Assembly: GCA_025923035.1 (NCBI GenBank) | Contig: JAICGQ010000004.1 | Location: 1-38,680, forward strand | Origin: Pyrinomonadaceae bacterium | GTDB taxonomy: Bacteria; Acidobacteriota; Blastocatellia; Pyrinomonadales; Pyrinomonadaceae | DNA: 38,680 bases | Direction: 5' to 3' | In this document: piece after piece, positions 4,988-32,964 of the stretch | Numbering within the stretch: the first letter of the stretch is position 1 | Layout: each line of letters begins with the position of its first letter | Translations under genes and position numbers: made by a program | Notes under the pieces: model-generated | The model's input: the letters and a program-made list of their open reading frames with translations, nothing else | What the model was told of the DNA's origin: nothing | Database searches by the model: none

Positions 4988-5920
4988 ATGATGCGCGCAG
5001 CTGAAAGCGTTCTCGATCTCATCGGGCAAACTCCTCTGCTTCATATCTCTCGTTTCGCGCCACCACCACTCGCCGGAGTTTACGCAAAAATTGAATGGCT
5101 GAATCCCGGCGGATCCATTAAGGATCGCGCCGCACTGGGAATGATTCTCGACGCCGAAGACAAAGGATTACTCCGACCCGGCGCAACGATTATCGAACCA
5201 ACTGCCGGCAATACCGGAATCGGCCTCGCCCTCGTGGGAGTCGCACGCGGTTACCGTGTTATCCTCTGCGTCCCGCGTGGTTTCGCTGAAGAGAAGATGA
5301 AGCTGATTCAGGCGTTGGGCGGCGAAATTGAGTACGTGTCAAACGAAGCGGGTATGCAGGGCGCGATCGACCGTTGTCGCGAACTGTCAGATTCGATCAA
5401 AGGCAGCTTCGTGCCGCAGCAGTTTGAGAATGCCGCGAACCCGTGTTTTCATGAACGAAGCACTGGACGCGAAATCATCGATCAGATGAACGGCCGGATC
5501 GACGCTGTCGTGATCGGCGCGGGAACATCCGGAACGTTCGTCGGCGTTTCGCGCGCGGTGCGCAGGATAAATAAGGACGTTTTATGCGTCCTCGTTGAAC
5601 CGGAAGGATCGATTTACGGCGGCAAACCACCGGGTCCGAAGAAAGTCGAAGGCATCGGGCAGCGGGATTTTATTCCGAAGATCTACGACGCTTCGCTCGC
5701 TGACGAGATCATGATGGTGTCGGACGTGGACGTTTGCGATGCCCTTAAGAAGATCGCCCGGCTCGAAGGACTTCTCGGCGGGTGGTCCACCGGCGCAGCA
5801 GCCGCGGCGTCTTACAAGATCGCCGAGCGACTCGGAACCGGGAAGAACATCGTCACTGTCTTCCCCGACGGCGCGGAACGTTATCGCAGCCAGGGTATTT
5901 TCGATGAACTTTGCACTTAG
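4988..5920 (+). CDS. PLP-dependent cysteine synthase / cystathionine beta-synthase-like protein
   Basis: LIGQTPLLHI, NPGGSIKDRAALGMI, EPTAGNTGIGLALVG, IGAGTSGTFVG, LGGWSTGAAA. Confidence 0.9.
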   Translation: MMRAAESVLDLIGQTPLLHISRFAPPPLAGVYAKIEWLNPGGSIKDRAALGMILDAEDKGLLRPGATIIEPTAGNTGIGLALVGVARGYRVILCVPRGFAEEKMKLIQALGGEIEYVSNEAGMQGAIDRCRELSDSIKGSFVPQQFENAANPCFHERSTGREIIDQMNGRIDAVVIGAGTSGTFVGVSRAVRRINKDVLCVLVEPEGSIYGGKPPGPKKVEGIGQRDFIPKIYDASLADEIMMVSDVDVCDALKKIARLEGLLGGWSTGAAAAASYKIAERLGTGKNIVTVFPDGAERYRSQGIFDELCT

Positions 5921-5993
5921 TGCTTTGTACTTTGTTCGCTGACGCAACAGCTACACAAAAAGCAAACAAAGAACAAAGCACAAAGAACTAAAG
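5907..5993 (+). repeat. Heptad hairpin element, copy 1 (NNCTTTG units, inverted arms)
   Basis: Left arm AACTTTG CACTTAG TGCTTTG TACTTTG TTCGCTG (5907-5941). Right arm AACAAAG AACAAAG CACAAAG AACTAAAG (5965-5993). Contains the stop codon of the upstream CDS. Confidence 0.8.
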
Positions 5994-6002
5994 ACCAATA
6001 CT

Positions 6003-7142
6003 ATGGGATTCGCAACCACAGCAATTCATACCGGATCCGAACCCGACGAAGCCACCGGCGCAGTCACGGTTCCGATCTATCAGACGTCAACCTACGCCCA
6101 GGACGCACTCGGAAAACATAAAGGCTACGAGTACGCGCGCACACAAAACCCGACGCGCTCGGCGCTCGAACGCAACGTCGCCGCACTCGAAGGCGCACGC
6201 TTCGGGTTCGCCTTCGCCTCCGGCATGGCCGCGATCGACGCCACGTTGCGGCTCGTGAAAGCCGGTGAACACGTTGTCGTCTCCGACAATACTTACGGCG
6301 GCACCGCGCGTCTCTTCAATCGCATCCTGACGAACTACGGCCTCGAGTTCGATTACGTCGACACATCCGATTCACTCAACGTCGAAGCAGCGATCAAACC
6401 CAACACGAAAATGGTGTTCATCGAAACACCGACGAATCCGGTGATGATCGTCACCGATCTGAAAGAAGTGAGCGAGATCGCACACCGTGCCGGGGCACGC
6501 GTCGTTTGCGACAACACGTTCATGTCGCCATATCTGCAGCGTCCACTCGAATTCGGCGTCGATATCGTGGTCCATTCAACCACGAAATATCTGAACGGCC
6601 ACTCGGATGGCGTCGGCGGCATCGTCGTCCTGAACGACGAAGAAGACGCGAACTGGATCGGCTTCGTTCAGAACAGCGCCGGCGCGATTCTTTCGCCGTT
6701 CGATTCGTGGCTCGTGATGCGCGGCACCAAAACGCTGGCATTGCGCATGGAACAGCATGACAAGTCGGGCCGCGCAGTTGCGGCGTTTCTCGAAGAGCAT
6801 CCGAAAGTGCAAAAGGTTTACTATCCCGGTTCGGCGTCGCACCCGCAGCATGCGCTCGCGAGCCGGCAACAACACGGATTCGGCGGGATGGTCGCGTTCG
6901 ACGTGGGTTCGCTAGCCAACGCCCGCACCGTGCTGGAGTCTGTTAAGCTCTGCACGCTTGCGGAAAGTCTGGGCGGCGTGGAGACGCTGATTTCGCATCC
7001 CGCGACGATGACGCACGCCTCGGTCGACGAAGCGAAACGGCATCGGATCGGCATTACCGACGGACTGGTGCGAATCTCAGTCGGGATTGAAGATACAGAC
7101 GATATAATCGCCGACCTCGATCAGGCGCTGGAGAAAATCTAG
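6003..7142 (+). CDS. Cystathionine gamma-synthase / gamma-lyase family PLP enzyme
   Basis: GFATTAIHTGSEPDEATGAVTVPIYQTSTY, YEYARTQNPTR, HSTTKYLNGHSDGVGG (PLP Lys), LGGVETLISHPATMTHA. Confidence 0.94.
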   Translation: MGFATTAIHTGSEPDEATGAVTVPIYQTSTYAQDALGKHKGYEYARTQNPTRSALERNVAALEGARFGFAFASGMAAIDATLRLVKAGEHVVVSDNTYGGTARLFNRILTNYGLEFDYVDTSDSLNVEAAIKPNTKMVFIETPTNPVMIVTDLKEVSEIAHRAGARVVCDNTFMSPYLQRPLEFGVDIVVHSTTKYLNGHSDGVGGIVVLNDEEDANWIGFVQNSAGAILSPFDSWLVMRGTKTLALRMEQHDKSGRAVAAFLEEHPKVQKVYYPGSASHPQHALASRQQHGFGGMVAFDVGSLANARTVLESVKLCTLAESLGGVETLISHPATMTHASVDEAKRHRIGITDGLVRISVGIEDTDDIIADLDQALEKI

Positions 7143-10974: not shown

Positions 10975-12303
10975 TTACTTGGTTCCGGTCGCAAGATAAC
11001 CGGGGCGCGCGCGAATCATAACATCCTTGCGCGTGCTTGCCACCTTGATCCGGCGGTAGCGATCGTCGTGTTTCTTGTCGAGTGGGTAGTAGCCGAGCAT
11101 GTATTGAGTGCGAAGTTCGGCGGCGATTTGCGCGAACGCATCCGGCAATGAGGCGAGTGTGTCGGCGCGCAGGAGGCGTCCGCCTGATTTATCGGCGATC
11201 GCTTTGAGATAGTCGTCTGCCTTTCCGTAAGCCATGTCCAGCATGCGATTGATCTCGTCGTCAGGTCGCGTGGTTCGTCTGCTGGTCGTCGAAGACGGAT
11301 CGGGCTGACCCGGGATGCGTCGACGATCCGGTAGCCTGTTTTCAGCAGTCCCGCGATCATCCGGCGGCATGCTGCCGGGAATCTGTTCACGGTCGCCTGG
11401 CTGCGGATAACGCCGATCCCGGTCGTTCGGATCCGTACGCTCGCGGCCGACCTCGCGCCGTCGCCGCAAGATATCTTCGGGCAACGGCAAACCGAATGGA
11501 CCTGTGCGTTGCGTTCCGGTGGTTGGAATCGGTTCTCCACCGGGAAACGTCGGCGCGGTGGTGCCACTCGGCGGACGCTGGATCACTTCGCGTGTGGGCA
11601 GTGTCGGCGTCATCTGTCCAGCTTGTTCACGTGCGAGGGCTTCGGTGGTGGCGCGAGTCTCGTACCGAATGGGATAAACGATCACGCCTTCTTCGTCGAG
11701 ATTGCGAAGCGTTCCGTCGAACGTGGCGCTATCGCTGTGCCAGTCCATGCCGTCGCTGAAGAGTACGATGGCTTTGCGACCTTGAATTCGGCGGACGTTA
11801 TTCAATGCGATTTCAAACGCGTCGTAAACCTTGGTTCCCGAGCCCGATCGCGTGCTGTTGATGGCGGTCCGGAGTGTTTCCCTGTTGCTCGTGAATTCGT
11901 TCAAGTCGCGTACTTCATCGTCAAACGAGATGATCTTGACGCGGTCGGCTGGTTGCAACTGTTGGACAAAGGAAAAGGCCGCGTTCTGGATTTGTTTGAG
12001 GTTGTCTTTCGTGCTGGAGCTCGTGTCGAGCAACAGGATTACGTGAAAAGGCTGCGCAACTTTCCCGAAGAACGCGATCTCGTGCCCAACGCCGTCTTCC
12101 ATGAGCTTGAATTCGTCTTTAGTGAGGTCGGTGATGTAAAGGCCGTTGATTGACGTTACGATGACCGGCACCATCACCAGGTTCGTGTCAATCTTGACGG
12201 TGTCCTCCACGTCCTGAGCAGCGGAGATGGCGACGCAGATCCCAATCAGAACCGCGGAAAAAAATGCACGTGAAGCAGAAGAAAGCATTTGGGTCCTCCT
12301 CAC
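10975..12303 (-). CDS. Secreted VWA-domain protein of the acidobacterial VWFA-related type
   Basis: Signal peptide-like N-terminus; VMVPVIVTSINGLYITDLTKDEFKLMEDG; MIDAS motif LLLDTSSST; C-terminal QYMLGYYPLDKKHDDRYRRIKV and RARPGYLA. Confidence 0.9.
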   Translation of the reverse strand: MRRTQMLSSASRAFFSAVLIGICVAISAAQDVEDTVKIDTNLVMVPVIVTSINGLYITDLTKDEFKLMEDGVGHEIAFFGKVAQPFHVILLLDTSSSTKDNLKQIQNAAFSFVQQLQPADRVKIISFDDEVRDLNEFTSNRETLRTAINSTRSGSGTKVYDAFEIALNNVRRIQGRKAIVLFSDGMDWHSDSATFDGTLRNLDEEGVIVYPIRYETRATTEALAREQAGQMTPTLPTREVIQRPPSGTTAPTFPGGEPIPTTGTQRTGPFGLPLPEDILRRRREVGRERTDPNDRDRRYPQPGDREQIPGSMPPDDRGTAENRLPDRRRIPGQPDPSSTTSRRTTRPDDEINRMLDMAYGKADDYLKAIADKSGGRLLRADTLASLPDAFAQIAAELRTQYMLGYYPLDKKHDDRYRRIKVASTRKDVMIRARPGYLATGTK

Positions 12304-12398
12304 GCAAGCCCGGGCAGAATCAGAATCGAAGCGAAAAGCAGGAAAGCCGTGTCGGCGCTAGGATGTTCGGCCAAAGCATAACGTTTCCCCCGGTGGAA

Positions 12399-12442
12399 TT
12401 GCCAATTGCAAATCGGCAATCGGCAATTGGCGATTGGCAATG
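12399..12442 (+). repeat. Heptad element of a second type (NGGCAAT units)
   Basis: ATTGCCA ATTGCAA at CGGCAAT CGGCAAT TGGCGAT TGGCAAT; 7-bp period with self-complementary arms, in the VWA/ccsA divergent intergenic region. Confidence 0.75.
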
Positions 12443-12469
12443 CTAGAATGCGATTCCGGTTTATCCCCA

Positions 12470-13294
12470 ATGAGGTCCTTACTGCTCGCAGTTCTGGCGG
12501 CATATCTGATAGCCGCAATCCACTCCATTCTGGCGTTCGTCAACAAAAGACGCTCGCTCCAGCGGGTCGCGGAGTGGTCGATGGCTGTCGGGTTCGTGCT
12601 GCACACCGCCGTGCTGATCGACGACTGGGCAGTCGACGGACACTATCCGCTATTCGGATTGCGAGAGACGTTGTCGTTTCTGTCGTGGGCGCTGGTCGGC
12701 AGTTACGCCCTCGTGCTCTATCACTATCGGGCGCAGGCAGTCGGCGCACTGGCGATGCCGGTGATTTGCATCCTGACCTCTGCCGCGCTGCTGATCAGTC
12801 CCGACCCGAGCGCCTCCGCCGCTGCCTTTTCGACGACGTGGCTGTTTCCGATCCACACGACGCTGCTGGTCTTCGCTTACGCGGCATTCTTCATAGTTTT
12901 CATGGCCAGCGTGATGTACCTGATCCAGGAACGCGAACTCAAAGTTAAAACGTTCAGCGGCTTCTTTCATCGCCTGCCGGCGCTGCGCACGATGAACGAG
13001 ATCTCGACCCACGCTGCGGCAGTCGGACTGACACTGCTCACGCTCGGACTCGTCGCCGGAGTTTTCTGGAGCTGGTCGTTGCACGGGAAAATGTGGCGTA
13101 ACGATCCGAAAGAGATTTTCGCAGTCCTTACGTGGCTGCTTTACTTCGTCCTCGCGATGTTTCGTTCGACAGCAAACTGGCGCGGACGTCGAGCGGCGTG
13201 GCTTGGCGTACTCGGCTTTGTCCTCGTGCTGTGCACGTTTTTGATCGCTCCGCTGTTGGGGAGTTACCACGTGTTTGGTCTCGCATTGAAGTAA
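12470..13294 (+). CDS. ccsA: Cytochrome c assembly (CcsA/HemX-like) integral membrane protein
   Basis: Multi-TM, GHYPLFGLRETLSFLSWALVGSYAL, GVFWSWSLHGKMWRNDPKEIFAVLTWLLYF; adjacent to hemA. ATG 12470 preferred over the track start inside the repeat. Confidence 0.85.
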   Translation: MRSLLLAVLAAYLIAAIHSILAFVNKRRSLQRVAEWSMAVGFVLHTAVLIDDWAVDGHYPLFGLRETLSFLSWALVGSYALVLYHYRAQAVGALAMPVICILTSAALLISPDPSASAAAFSTTWLFPIHTTLLVFAYAAFFIVFMASVMYLIQERELKVKTFSGFFHRLPALRTMNEISTHAAAVGLTLLTLGLVAGVFWSWSLHGKMWRNDPKEIFAVLTWLLYFVLAMFRSTANWRGRRAAWLGVLGFVLVLCTFLIAPLLGSYHVFGLALK

Positions 13295-20488: not shown

Positions 20489-20540
20489 CTATCCATCCGC
20501 CCTCTCTCATCATGTCGGGATTAAACCACCCTGCAATTAC

Positions 20541-20978
20541 GGAACAGGTCTGTAAGCCGAATTCTGTACTTCAACCTCCGTGGAGCTTGAAGTGGCGATC
20601 ATTCATCTAGTCCAACCGTTGCCGGTTAGATCGAGCGACCTACCCGGAGGTCGTAGCGAACCGAAGTTCGCTTCGGGCGGGCAGCCCTGGTTGACGCCTC
20701 CCTATTTGGTCTTGCACCGCGAGGAGTTTGCCTGGCCGCGCATGTCACCATACGCGCCGGTGCGCTCTTACCGCACCATTTCACCCATCACCTCGCAACC
20801 AAATGATCGCAGAGGCTGGTTTGTTTTCTGTTGCACTTGTCGTCGCCCCACGTGTCAAATCTCACGATTCAACAACGTCAGACGCCCCGCCGTTAGCGGG
20901 CTCGCTGCCCTGTAGTGTTCGGACTTTCCTCTCCCGGCTTGCGCCGGCAGCGACCGCCCGACCTGTTCTCATGCAAGG
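20541..20978 (-). ncRNA. rnpB: RNase P RNA (bacterial type A-like)
   Basis: Reverse complement contains GAGGAAAGTCCGAACAC, AGTGCAACAGAAAACAAACC, GGTGCGGTAAGAGCGCACCG, GCAAGACCAAATAGG, CCGGGTAGGTCGCT, CTAGATGAATGAT and ACAGAATTCGGCTTA. P1 pairing GAACAGGTC (5') / GACCTGTTC (3'). Confidence 0.97.
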
Positions 20979-28827: not shown

Positions 28828-31140
28828 TCAGGGCTTTCGAATCTTGTGGCTGGAGCGGACGCGGCCCGGCGAGAGTGGTCCACGCGCATCGTCGGCGGTG
28901 ACTTTACTGTCTCGCAAAGAGACCGTCAAACGAGCACCTTCCGTGTTGCCTTGCTCGACGTCGTCAACACGCGCCGGATTGCCTTTCAGCACCGCGACTT
29001 CGTCGGCAGCAGTGTACTCGACCCAGTCGCCCGTCCCCTTGCGGTTCGGTTGCGTGAGCACGACGTCTCGCTGCGCGACTGTTTTCTGCATCTCGTTTGA
29101 AGCTTTATCGAGATAGACATCGGCGACGCCGCCCGTGAGTCGATCGGTTCCCTGCTTGATGTCGACGTTGCCTTCGTAGTGAATGGTGCGATCCGGATCT
29201 GAGTAAAACATCGAATCCGCAGACGCGAATACGGGCACGACGGTCGTCTGGTTTTCGACACGACGCTTCGAGTTATAGATCGTGGTCTGAACGTGACCCG
29301 ACGCTTCCATTCGTTTGTCGTTCACGTACAAGACCAGCTTGTCGCCGCGCACGTAATTGTCATCCTGCCACGCGCGCGCGTTGCCGAGATAAATAGCCTG
29401 ACCGCTCTCGTGGCGAAACTCGCCGCGTTCGCTGGCGATGTATACCGGGCTTTTCGTCTTCGAAAAAGGCGTCGCGCCGTTGGTCTGTTCCTGGCTGTAG
29501 TAGGTCGTGGTGGTCCTGCCACGTGCGTAGGAGATATTGTTTGCGAGATCGGAATCGAGTTCGACTGCTTTTGTACGGCCGCGCGAATCCCAAACAGTCG
29601 GATCGCCGCCGCGGAGTCTGACGGTTTGGTCGGCAGCGAGATACGAAACGTTCGCAGCGACGCCGTTGCGATCGAGTTCATTGAACTTGCCGTCGCCTTG
29701 CGCGTCGACGCGTTCGATGTCCTGCGCGTCTTTGACGAACACGGCAGACATGTTCTGCGAAGTCAGTGTGCGAGTGCCGCGCTTTGGCGAAGGTTGCAAC
29801 GGCTCCAGCGTGGCTTTCGAACCGCCGCTGGATTTACATTCGCGAGCGAGATTACCGGCGTCGAAGAAGTCGCAATCGAAGCGCGGCGCGTTCAGCGTCT
29901 TGCGCTCAGCGCGCGCGCTGCTCACGACAGGTTCGACAAACAACTCCGCATTGCCTTGCGCTTCCGCTTTTTCCAGATCGCGCCCGGTGCTGCGCCACAG
30001 TAGTTTGACTGCATCGGCGGTGAGTCGCTTGTTTGCGGCGCGCGGATCGTTGGCCTTCGACTTCGGAGCGCTCAGTGTGATCGTCGAGCGCTGACCCGTC
30101 TGCATCTGTTTCAAGACACTGCCTTCGGCGTTTGCCTGGAAAAGGACTTCCATCGAACTCGCGCCGCTGAGTTGCATGTCCGCGTCGGTGTCGAGTGAAC
30201 GCGCGACGACGTTGTTGTTTGCGAGCGCGCGTTGCAGGCGTTGGTCCTTGTCGAGGAAGAAGTCCATGTCGACTGACGAGACTTCCGCCGAACGGCCGGG
30301 TTGCATCGTACGCAGGTACGCATCACCGCGAAGCTCAGCTCTTTCGAGTCGCTTTTCCTGGTTTAGAAAGGCATAGAGGTTCTTGCCGCTCAGGATGTCG
30401 CTTTCCTGTTCGAAAGTGGCGCCGCCGGAGAACGTTAGCTTCAGCGATTCCTGTTCGAACACTGCCTGCGCCGACTTGATCAAAACCGGTCGCGCACGAG
30501 TTGGCGCCTTCGCCGCCGTTGCCGCAGGCACTTGCGGCACGATAGTAATCTCGACGTCCTTTTTCAGATCGAGACGTTTCGCTTTTTGTTCGACGACGGC
30601 GCCGACCGACTTTCCGCTCACGTTTTCACGTTCGAAGGTGACGGCCGCATCGGTATGGGCCACGCCGCTGTTCTGATCGAACGACAGCGCTTCCGTTGCG
30701 ACTTTCAGTTTTTCCTTTGTCTCGATCCGGACGTTTCCGGAAAACGACAGGACATTCGTGTCAGGAATGTAGACCGCATGCGCCGCAGAGATCTGATCCG
30801 GCACATCGCCTTCGGGCGGATAGACCTGCATGCTGACGTTTTCGAGTTCGTGATGACCGTCGGAGAACGTCGTGTCTTTCGACGCTTTTACCAGCAGGTA
30901 CAAGCGATCGTTTTTCGTGACGCGTTGTTCGTAGCCGTACACTTCGCCGGTCTTTTCTTTCGAAAGTTCCGGCTTCTCCGAACGCGCTTTGAATTTTTCG
31001 ACGTTGCGGAGTTTGTAATAAGAGACACCGACGAGCGCGATGCCCGACATGAGCAAGGCAAACGCGACGAGACGCGCGATCATCGGCACCCTGGCCCGTA
31101 GGCCAAGGGCGATTGCTCGTTTTCGCACCAGTTCTTGCAT
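28828..31140 (-). CDS. LptC-like domain fused to OstA/LptA-like repeats (770 aa)
   Basis: N-terminal TM followed by LptC-like segment, then repeated LptA-type beta motifs (TNVLSFSGNVRIETKEKLKVATEALSFD; YASERGEFRHESGQAIYLGNARAWQDDNYVRGDKLVLYVNDKRMEASGHVQTTI; HYEGNVDIKQGTDRLTGGVADVYLD). Confidence 0.85.
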   Translation of the reverse strand: MQELVRKRAIALGLRARVPMIARLVAFALLMSGIALVGVSYYKLRNVEKFKARSEKPELSKEKTGEVYGYEQRVTKNDRLYLLVKASKDTTFSDGHHELENVSMQVYPPEGDVPDQISAAHAVYIPDTNVLSFSGNVRIETKEKLKVATEALSFDQNSGVAHTDAAVTFERENVSGKSVGAVVEQKAKRLDLKKDVEITIVPQVPAATAAKAPTRARPVLIKSAQAVFEQESLKLTFSGGATFEQESDILSGKNLYAFLNQEKRLERAELRGDAYLRTMQPGRSAEVSSVDMDFFLDKDQRLQRALANNNVVARSLDTDADMQLSGASSMEVLFQANAEGSVLKQMQTGQRSTITLSAPKSKANDPRAANKRLTADAVKLLWRSTGRDLEKAEAQGNAELFVEPVVSSARAERKTLNAPRFDCDFFDAGNLARECKSSGGSKATLEPLQPSPKRGTRTLTSQNMSAVFVKDAQDIERVDAQGDGKFNELDRNGVAANVSYLAADQTVRLRGGDPTVWDSRGRTKAVELDSDLANNISYARGRTTTTYYSQEQTNGATPFSKTKSPVYIASERGEFRHESGQAIYLGNARAWQDDNYVRGDKLVLYVNDKRMEASGHVQTTIYNSKRRVENQTTVVPVFASADSMFYSDPDRTIHYEGNVDIKQGTDRLTGGVADVYLDKASNEMQKTVAQRDVVLTQPNRKGTGDWVEYTAADEVAVLKGNPARVDDVEQGNTEGARLTVSLRDSKVTADDARGPLSPGRVRSSHKIRKP

Positions 31141-31146
31141 CTTCGT

Positions 31147-31257
31147 GGTTCTTTGTTCTTTGTTCTTTGTGCTTTGTTCGCCTACCTCACGTACTCACTT
31201 ATGACAATGCAGTTCCGTGGCGAGCAAACAAAGAACAAAGCGCTAAGTACTAAGCTC
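31147..31257 (-). repeat. Heptad hairpin element, copy 3 (recJ / lptC-lptA gap)
   Basis: Plus strand: TTCTTTG x3, TGCTTTG, TTCGCC (31149-31182); opposing arm GGCGAGCAAACAAAG AACAAAG CGCTAAG TACTAAG (31219-31254). Contains the recJ stop codon. Confidence 0.8.
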
Positions 31258-32964
31258 GACTGTCCTACAGTCCACAACGTTCAACTGCATCCGGTATTCA
31301 TTGTTGAAGGCGCTCAGCTCGATCGTGTAAGCGAGTTCGATGCTGCCGTTCAGGTTGGGAGTTTGCCTTCCCGGCTCCGTGCAGTTGAACCAAATAGCTT
31401 CCAGCGGGCGGTTTTGTGGACCCGCCAGCCTCAACCTCAGATGTCGCTCCTTCAATAACACCGGCTCCGACAAACAACGGAGATTCCTCGTCGCAAACAC
31501 CGGCGTCGGATTACCCGCGCCGAAAGGTTCCAATGCCTGAAGCTCTCGCGCCATCGCGAATGTGACACTTTCTGCCGGTAACTCCAGATCGATTACCACG
31601 GAGTGCTCCAGATCATCCGGCGTCAAACAAGACGCAGCGTGCTCGTTCAGTCGCCGTCGAAACTCCGCAATCCGCTCGGGACGAATCGTGATACCCGCCG
31701 CATGCGAGTGCCCGCCAAACTTTTCAAACAGATCCGAACACGCGGTCAGACCGTTCAGCAGGTGATAAGCCTCGATACTGCGTCCCGAACCATGGGCCAC
31801 GTCGCCATCGACCGACAACACGACGCACGGACGATTCAATCGCTCCGCGATCTTCGACGCCGCAATGCCGATCACCCCGCGATGCCAACCGTCGCCCGCA
31901 ACAACCGTGACGAACGAATCGTTCGCGGCGCCTTCCTCGAGCTCCGCAACCGCGAGATCAATGATCTGCTGCTGCACAGTCTTGCGTTCCTCGTTTCGCG
32001 CGTCGAGGTGTTCGGCAAGACGCCGGGCCTCCGCGGAATCGCGCGTATCAAACAGCTCGACTACAGCGCTGGCTGCGTCCATGCGGCCGGCCGCGTTTAT
32101 GCGCGGTCCGAGCCGAAAACCAAGATCGTATGCTGTCATGCCCGTGCCGTCTCCGCAACCAGCCACGTCGATCAACGCGCGCAAACCAGGATTCGCAGCT
32201 TTCGCGAGATCTTTCAGGCCGAGGGCGACGATGGTTCGGTTCTCGCCGGTCAGTTTTGCGACGTCCGCGACGGTGCCAATCGCGACAACCTTCATAAACG
32301 CCGCAACTTGCGCTTCACGGCCACGTTCGCGAAAGAGTGCGTGGACGAGTTTGAACGCGACGCCGACGCCGGCGAGGTTCTTGTCGGGATATTCGCAGCC
32401 TTTCTGGTTCGGATTCAGGACGGCGAACGCGGGAGGGGCGCCGTCGGTTTCGTCGGGCAGATGGTGATCCGTGATGATCACGTCGAGGCCGTTGTCGCGC
32501 GCCCAGTGAAGTGGCGCGTGAGCGCGGATGCCGCAGTCGACGCTTACCACCAGCTTGTACCCGTCGGCGACAGCTTTCTCGAGCGCGGCTTGTTGAATGC
32601 CGTAGCCTTCGGTGAAACGGTGTGGAACGTGAAAGCCGACGCGCGCGCCGAGAAGTTTCAGCGCTCGCAGGAGAATCGCGGTTCCGGTCGTGCCGTCGAC
32701 GTCGTAGTCGCCGTAGATCAGGATCGGTTCGCCGGTGTTAAGTGCATGCTGAAGTCGCTCGACCGCCTCTTTCATGCCGAGCATCAAGTAGGGTTCGTGA
32801 AGTTGATCGTAACCTGGGGTGAGAAAGGTGCGCGCAGAAGACGCGTCGCCGTATCCGCGATTGATTAGCAGTGCAGCCAGGATTGGTGAGACACCCAGTA
32901 CGCGTGCGAGCGAGGCGGCGTCGTCAGCATTATGCCCTCGCACGATCCAGCGTTTGGCTTTCAT
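31243..32964 (-). CDS. recJ: Single-stranded-DNA-specific exonuclease
   Basis: ILIYGDYDVDGTTGTAILLRAL, VSVDCGIRAHAPL, VIITDHHLPDE, NLAGVGVAFKL, GPRINAAGRMDAASAVVEL, GSGRSIEAYHLL, GGHSHAAGITI. Confidence 0.97.
   Translation of the reverse strand: MKAKRWIVRGHNADDAASLARVLGVSPILAALLINRGYGDASSARTFLTPGYDQLHEPYLMLGMKEAVERLQHALNTGEPILIYGDYDVDGTTGTAILLRALKLLGARVGFHVPHRFTEGYGIQQAALEKAVADGYKLVVSVDCGIRAHAPLHWARDNGLDVIITDHHLPDETDGAPPAFAVLNPNQKGCEYPDKNLAGVGVAFKLVHALFRERGREAQVAAFMKVVAIGTVADVAKLTGENRTIVALGLKDLAKAANPGLRALIDVAGCGDGTGMTAYDLGFRLGPRINAAGRMDAASAVVELFDTRDSAEARRLAEHLDARNEERKTVQQQIIDLAVAELEEGAANDSFVTVVAGDGWHRGVIGIAASKIAERLNRPCVVLSVDGDVAHGSGRSIEAYHLLNGLTACSDLFEKFGGHSHAAGITIRPERIAEFRRRLNEHAASCLTPDDLEHSVVIDLELPAESVTFAMARELQALEPFGAGNPTPVFATRNLRCLSEPVLLKERHLRLRLAGPQNRPLEAIWFNCTEPGRQTPNLNGSIELAYTIELSAFNNEYRMQLNVVDCRTVELST

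Follow-up and report, generated by a model that had tools for sequence, protein, structure and literature searches.

Among long simple repeats, heptamers show the strongest over-representation in many bacteria, and the cause of this excess is an old puzzle. For three decades, the four-helix proteins of the S23p family have been familiar chiefly as passengers carried by rRNA intervening sequences (IVSs), and 23S rRNA IVSs without an ORF exist as well. In Coxiella, the 23S rRNA IVS harbors an S23p ORF, is closed by a 28-bp terminal stem and shows tandem heptamers (GACAGAT) in front of the ORF (PMC4990558). The same source describes the solved structure of the Xanthomonas family member XCC0516 as a homopentamer (PMC4990558, citing Lin et al. 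2006). S23p is furthermore a relative of Avd, a protein of diversity-generating retroelements (PMC10053308). Arrays of short tandem units were also described outside rRNA genes. The GGGAATC heptamers of Xanthomonas are intergenic, mostly comprise four units and form 70-75 inverted pairs per genome, with positions 1-4 and 6 conserved and two variable positions per heptad (Rehm et al. 2015; PMC4692102). Geobacter metallireducens harbors arrays of classes 1-3, in which three to five copies of an octa-, nona- or heptamer follow each other in tandem, paired on opposite strands at variable distance (PMC2700814), and most TAACTGA arrays of the Beggiatoaceae are situated just before start codons and were proposed to be sites of a translational regulator (PMC4679880). 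In the portions of the Coxiella, Xanthomonas, Geobacter and Beggiatoaceae papers that were available, none links arrays outside rRNA to S23p. A search of an open-licence collection of papers yielded no paper that joins S23p with heptamer arrays in general and nothing relevant on the unit sequences treated here.

The element considered here is located in a stretch of 38,680 nucleotides (the window, i.e. the whole stretch of DNA analysed) from a metagenome-assembled Pyrinomonadaceae genome that is 88% complete (G000). It lies on the minus strand between recJ (31243..32964; Pfam domains DHH, DHHA1 and RecJ_OB) and a gene with LptC and LptA/LptD_N domains according to Pfam (28828..31140, minus strand; ATG at 31138-31140). 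The whole element (31143..31255) consists, in coding-strand order, of four heptads, a core and five heptads. The first arm (31228..31255, minus strand) has the reverse complement ACAAAGA ACAAAGC GCTAAGT ACTAAGC, with CTT-N-G-NN as unit on the coding (minus) strand, and the second arm (31143..31177, minus strand) reads ACAAAGC ACAAAGA ACAAAGA ACAAAGA ACCACGA and ends 2 nt before the ATG. The core (31178..31227, minus strand) shows TCGC...GCGA caps, as do 16 other elements whose cores measure 43-51 nt. The preliminary description had given sequence and coordinates of this element correctly; its loop of about 35 nt is obtained if the arms are taken to include the complementary TTTGCTCGCC/GGCGAAC caps, otherwise 50 nt separate the complete heptads. 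The recJ stop codon was rightly placed in the TAG of the outer heptad TACTTAG (31243..31245, minus strand), and the last RecJ codons (approximately VELST) lie in or at the element. As the RecJ proteins of relatives, the closest of which share about 85% RecJ identity with the source genome, can be aligned only up to residue 566-569 of 573, the last few RecJ residues are written by the element. A further element in the window, copy 1 (5908..6000, plus strand; arms 5908-5935 and 5966-6000, core 5936-5965), is flanked by genes for PLP enzymes (Pfam). The stop codon of the upstream one (4988-5920) is, again as described before, the TAG of CACTTAG (5918..5920, plus strand), and the next ATG follows at 6003. 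A Rfam search of the window gave RNase P as the sole match above the gathering score (RNase P RNA of bacterial class A, 20537-20969, minus strand), and the recJ-lptC element matched no family. The element is not a Rho-independent terminator, since a GC-rich stem and a U run are absent; its stem is formed by AT-rich heptads and ends GAACCACGAAGATG. The window also contains a short array of a second heptad family, GGCAATY, at 12404-12442 (AATTGCAAATCGGCAATCGGCAATTGGCGATTGGCAATG).

These two copies belong to a defined dispersed element and are not products of chance, as had been argued from the two loci. The window contains 15 matches to ACAAAGNACAAAG (≤2 mismatches) versus 1.78 expected, a number reached by 0/100 shuffles, and genome-wide 196 exact double heptads were counted versus 3 for the reversed control pattern. 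Among the same-genus genomes, the number of matches lies between 1 and 91. The analysis covered about 818 kb of the source genome and identified 54 strong elements, both window elements among them; since part of these 818 kb was picked for pattern matches, the density of elements in them is not representative. Over all arrays, the profile of the unit is [A82/T12]C[A65/T17/C15]AA[G82]N, with N hardly ever G, which corresponds to the degenerate heptad [A/T]C[A/T/C]AAG[N] with five of the seven positions conserved across copies. Most arms comprise four to five heptads, and the order of the arms, already noted as shared by the two window copies, is constant: the CTTTG arm precedes the ACAAAG arm in all 47 elements with two well-scored arms. 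No identical pairs occur among the listed elements. Loop lengths range from 0 to 66 nt, and the shorter loops look like internal deletions of the form with a 43-51 nt TCGC...GCGA core. A common core sequence was rejected, because the 43-51 nt cores have nothing in common but their TCGC...GCGA caps and a weak similarity (mean identity 31%).

Comparison with relatives of the same genus identifies the elements as insertions. Between recJ and lptC, the genes overlap in G005 and G008, with the recJ stop TAA inside the start region ATGCA(A/G)GAACTAA, and are separated by a short spacer in G015. The same junction is occupied by another palindromic repeat (GTAGGGGCGG...CCGCCCCTAC) in G003 (L057) and by heptads of other units, AACAGYN, AACAGCA and ACTGACA, in G004, G006 and G011, respectively. 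As the two genes overlap, nearly abut or enclose another repeat in these genomes, the element between them is an insertion. Copy 1 is exactly absent from three relatives, where the spacers measure 8, 12 and 12 nt and the alignment ends right at the element. The relatives thus display empty sites and not the same sequence as ancestral intergenic DNA. The idea of the loop as an old intergenic spacer was likewise discarded: at several sites the genes of the relatives overlap or lie 8-20 nt apart, which implies that most of the core arrived with the element. Other junctions show a turnover of arrays. One is empty in G015 (16 nt) and carries a CCAAAGA-type element in G005; at another one, G015 has an AAATCGG-type element instead (L170 vs L274); and one element is common to G000 and G015, with a second array, AACTGAC, in the loop of the G000 copy (L156 vs L266). 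Different heptad arrays at one junction or inside loops indicate that junctions are re-used by different heptad families and that elements nest. ACAAAGN elements with an AACTGAC array in the loop were observed at L156 (1795-1923), L158 (3218-3349) and L167 (3296-3413); these inner arrays look nested, the G015 orthologue of L156 (L266) being devoid of the inner array.

The elements fill the space between a stop codon and the next start codon. On the basis of a home-made gene caller, 40 of the 49 elements between called genes lie between co-directional, eight between divergent and one between convergent genes (background of adjacent gene pairs: 488 co-directional, 97 divergent, 101 convergent). 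Where a gene runs into an element, the stop codon is found at -10 to +15 nt of the element edge in 37/42 cases; copies lying mostly away from stop codons, the outcome that would have spoken against the earlier proposal, were hence not observed. TAG accounts for 21 of these 37 edge stops versus 143/568 (25%) in other genes (Fisher p = 8.7e-5), and 17 of the 21 are in heptad register, so that the terminal heptad often serves as stop codon. The ACTTAG stop unit postulated from the two window copies stands in this general sense, that the element often supplies the stop; the exact ACTTAG is not universal, and a script counted TTAG-form stops within the array at 10/42 gene ends. Purifying selection on genes may suffice to explain the placement at stop/start junctions, or a target preference may contribute.

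One element of the source genome carries a gene. On contig C16 (approximately 12169-12659, corresponding to L052 7169-7659), ACAAAGN arms about 400 bp apart frame an ORF (L052 7196-7609) for a 137-aa protein with a PF05635 (23S_rRNA_IVP) match of E = 3.4e-27, which also matches the solved S23p structure PDB 2gsc (XCC0516). The neighbors encode an ABC transporter ATPase and a putative lipoprotein. In G005 the same junction is occupied by an S23p gene whose arms are of the CCAAAGA type and in G001 by one whose arms are mixed; in G015 and G003 it is empty. The S23p dN/dS at this junction, computed from the copies of G000 and G001, is about 0.11, which indicates that the protein is under constraint. 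The heptad unit ACAAAGN is common to the arms of this element and the recJ-lptC element. The latter has no S23p gene and no ORF in its 50-nt core, and it can therefore be only an ORF-less derivative; the ORF-less elements with 45-nt TCGC...GCGA cores have no core sequence in common with the S23p-bearing element.

Heptads also frame S23p genes at other loci. Among 53 S23p loci, selected as the best-scoring PF05635 loci from the genus and the phylum, 35 display lag-7 arrays on both flanks, compared with 0/318 within-locus control windows, 0/17 RecJ/Y1 loci and 2/196 control genes of G000. Other periods are near zero at S23p loci, except period 8 (7/52). The array test failed at 18/53 loci, and one of the three S23p genes in G000 (on contig C38) has no arrays. 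At the S23p loci the left unit agrees with the reverse complement of the right unit at 6.11 of 7 positions, versus 3.64 after permutation, and the units vary between loci. Similarity of the S23p proteins correlates with similarity of the units (Mantel r = 0.35, 0/2000 permutations), a correlation that is likewise expected if arms and S23p gene are merely inherited together. Period-7 or -8 arrays enclose all 12 plasmid S23p genes examined; 11 of these genes are cyanobacterial (e.g. Nostoc, Anabaena, Calothrix, Trichormus and Pseudanabaena), and the twelfth comes from Gemmatirosa. On a Nostoc edaphicum plasmid, for instance, AGTAGGG/CCCTACT runs surround an S23p gene between two ribonucleotide reductase genes, while the two arrays flanking S23p on the Pseudanabaena plasmid look direct, not inverted. 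Period-8 rather than period-7 framing was seen at the S23p genes of L343 (Gemmatirosa plasmid) and L346 (Picosynechococcus plasmid).

Units and resident S23p genes were also compared across the genus. ACAAAGN is most abundant in G000, whose C16 S23p gene has ACAAAGN arms. G000, G015 and G003 lack CCAAAGACCAAAGAC, which does occur in G005, where the S23p arms are of that type; its only occurrence in G001 lies within about 80 bp of an S23p gene, and one occurrence in G012 does likewise. GGCAATY is found in 15/16 genomes and closely resembles the unit in the arms of the sole S23p gene of G015 (L242). Two incomplete assemblies deviate: G003 has one weak PF05635 match and 93 GGCAAT matches, and G008 has 52 ACAAAG matches and no PF05635 match. 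Many arrays without a PF05635 match, as in G008, count against a strict dependence of the arrays on S23p.

Taken together, the recJ-lptC element probably belongs to a family of S23p-heptad elements as a non-autonomous member without an ORF. Members of this family would be bounded by two facing arrays of about four to five heptads, with the S23p gene between them in the complete form. An S23p oligomer may recognize the arrays, either in DNA or in RNA, and the recognized feature would be the arrays themselves and not the base-pairing of the arms. Conceivably, each S23p subunit contacts one heptad, a conjecture suggested by the homopentameric XCC0516 and the four to five units per arm. As they spread, the elements would end up at stop/start junctions, the places where an insertion is least damaging, and would often provide the stop codon, and the unit would change along with the resident S23p lineage. 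The S23p loci without arrays, the G003 and G008 assemblies and the unshared core sequences count against this reading. To our knowledge, S23p is not a known transposase. A reverse transcriptase acting in trans, as suggested by the relationship to Avd, was considered as mover and rejected, since G000 (88% complete) has no RVT_1 match; RVT_1 is present in 10/16 genomes of the genus.

The alternatives are less probable to different degrees. The arrays might be bound by a nucleoid protein or global regulator of the host that has no relation to S23p, and selection or some other mover might have spread them. Such sites would agree with the conservation of unit positions across copies in the absence of conserved pairing, and Geobacter has the same paired opposite-strand tandem arrays (PMC2700814); neither the framing of S23p genes by arrays nor a separate unit for each S23p is predicted by this explanation, which is considered unlikely.

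Similarly improbable is an RNA hairpin between cistrons, i.e. a processing, stability or attenuation signal with arms that pair in the recJ-lptC transcript. Folding is strong compared with shuffles (z = -3.5 for the recJ-lptC copy and z = -4.7 for copy 1), and the predominance of co-directional neighbors, with only a single convergent case, would suit a transcribed signal. If the stem were the selected feature, as its initial reading as a hairpin implied, facing heptads should covary. However, the variable positions 3 and 7 of facing arms agree at or below chance: agreement is 60/217 = 0.276 at position 7 versus 0.335 with arms randomly re-paired, and 0.484 at position 3 versus 0.500 with random re-pairing between elements. 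The hairpin stem is thus not supported as a selected feature; paired positions match only because both arms repeat one unit, and the stem is most plausibly a side effect of that unit being arrayed face to face in the two arms. The variable length of the loop and the absence of the element from relatives with the same gene order also speak against a hairpin signal.

A REP/REPIN-type element moved by a Y1 transposase (TnpA-REP, RAYT) is very unlikely. Like REPs, the elements are dispersed, palindromic, multicopy, intergenic and non-autonomous, and Y1_Tnp genes occur in many relatives of the genus (up to 15). The Y1 transposase family (PF01797) has 0 matches, however, in the 88% complete G000, which holds the most copies, and none in G015, which also has copies; the listed elements share no GTAG/CGTC tag at their ends, and arms made of tandem heptad arrays differ from the REP form. 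Slippage of the polymerase, suggested in the literature for bacterial heptamer repeats and in keeping with period 7 as a known excess class (cited in PMC4679880 and PMC4692102), can practically be dismissed, as it does not flank a core or gene with arrays of the same unit that face each other and leaves the fixed arm order and the insertion at many loci with one unit unexplained.

In a wider sense, S23p together with framing heptad arrays could tentatively be grouped into a single, widespread class of small elements, mobile or selfish, in which S23p recognizes its own unit, a generalization about as easily doubted as accepted; rRNA IVSs, the cyanobacterial, Xanthomonas and Geobacter arrays and the recJ-lptC element would be its members, and the 7-nt excess would be explained. 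One testable link would thereby join two puzzles, the bacterial heptamer excess and the role of S23p: the S23p homologues framed by 7-letter arrays in distant bacteria offer a testable reason for genomes rich in 7-letter repeats. If S23p binds its own heptads, each natural pair of S23p and unit is a ready-made specificity experiment. Such binding would also account for S23p genes inside cas operons and for the listing of 23S_rRNA_IVP among CRISPR-associated genes in earlier compilations (PMC3936711, PMC10910872), which may reflect insertion and not function. In the cyanobacterial plasmids examined, S23p genes are array-framed inserts between cas or nrd genes; those of L336, L339 and L346 are located between cas6 and cas4 or between cas10 and cmr3.

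Among the described systems, the Beggiatoaceae TAACTGA arrays resemble the present elements as intergenic heptamer arrays, but are reported almost solely as direct repeats (PMC4679880). The Geobacter metallireducens arrays share the paired, opposite-strand tandem arrangement and the dispersed, multicopy occurrence; they differ in their units and were proposed to be IHF/HU sites (PMC2700814). The Xanthomonas GGGAATC arrays are likewise intergenic, mostly comprise four units with two variable positions each, form inverted pairs and occur in a genus that has an S23p protein, XCC0516; their unit is another one, and they were interpreted as G-quadruplex repeats with no link to S23p (PMC4692102). 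From the 23S rRNA IVSs of Coxiella and Leptospira, the present elements are distinguished by their position between protein genes (the recJ-lptC element does not lie in a 23S rRNA helix and is by location no rRNA IVS), by their many ORF-less copies and by the unit ACAAAGN. With these IVSs they share an S23p gene of the same Pfam family, placed between terminal inverted repeats.
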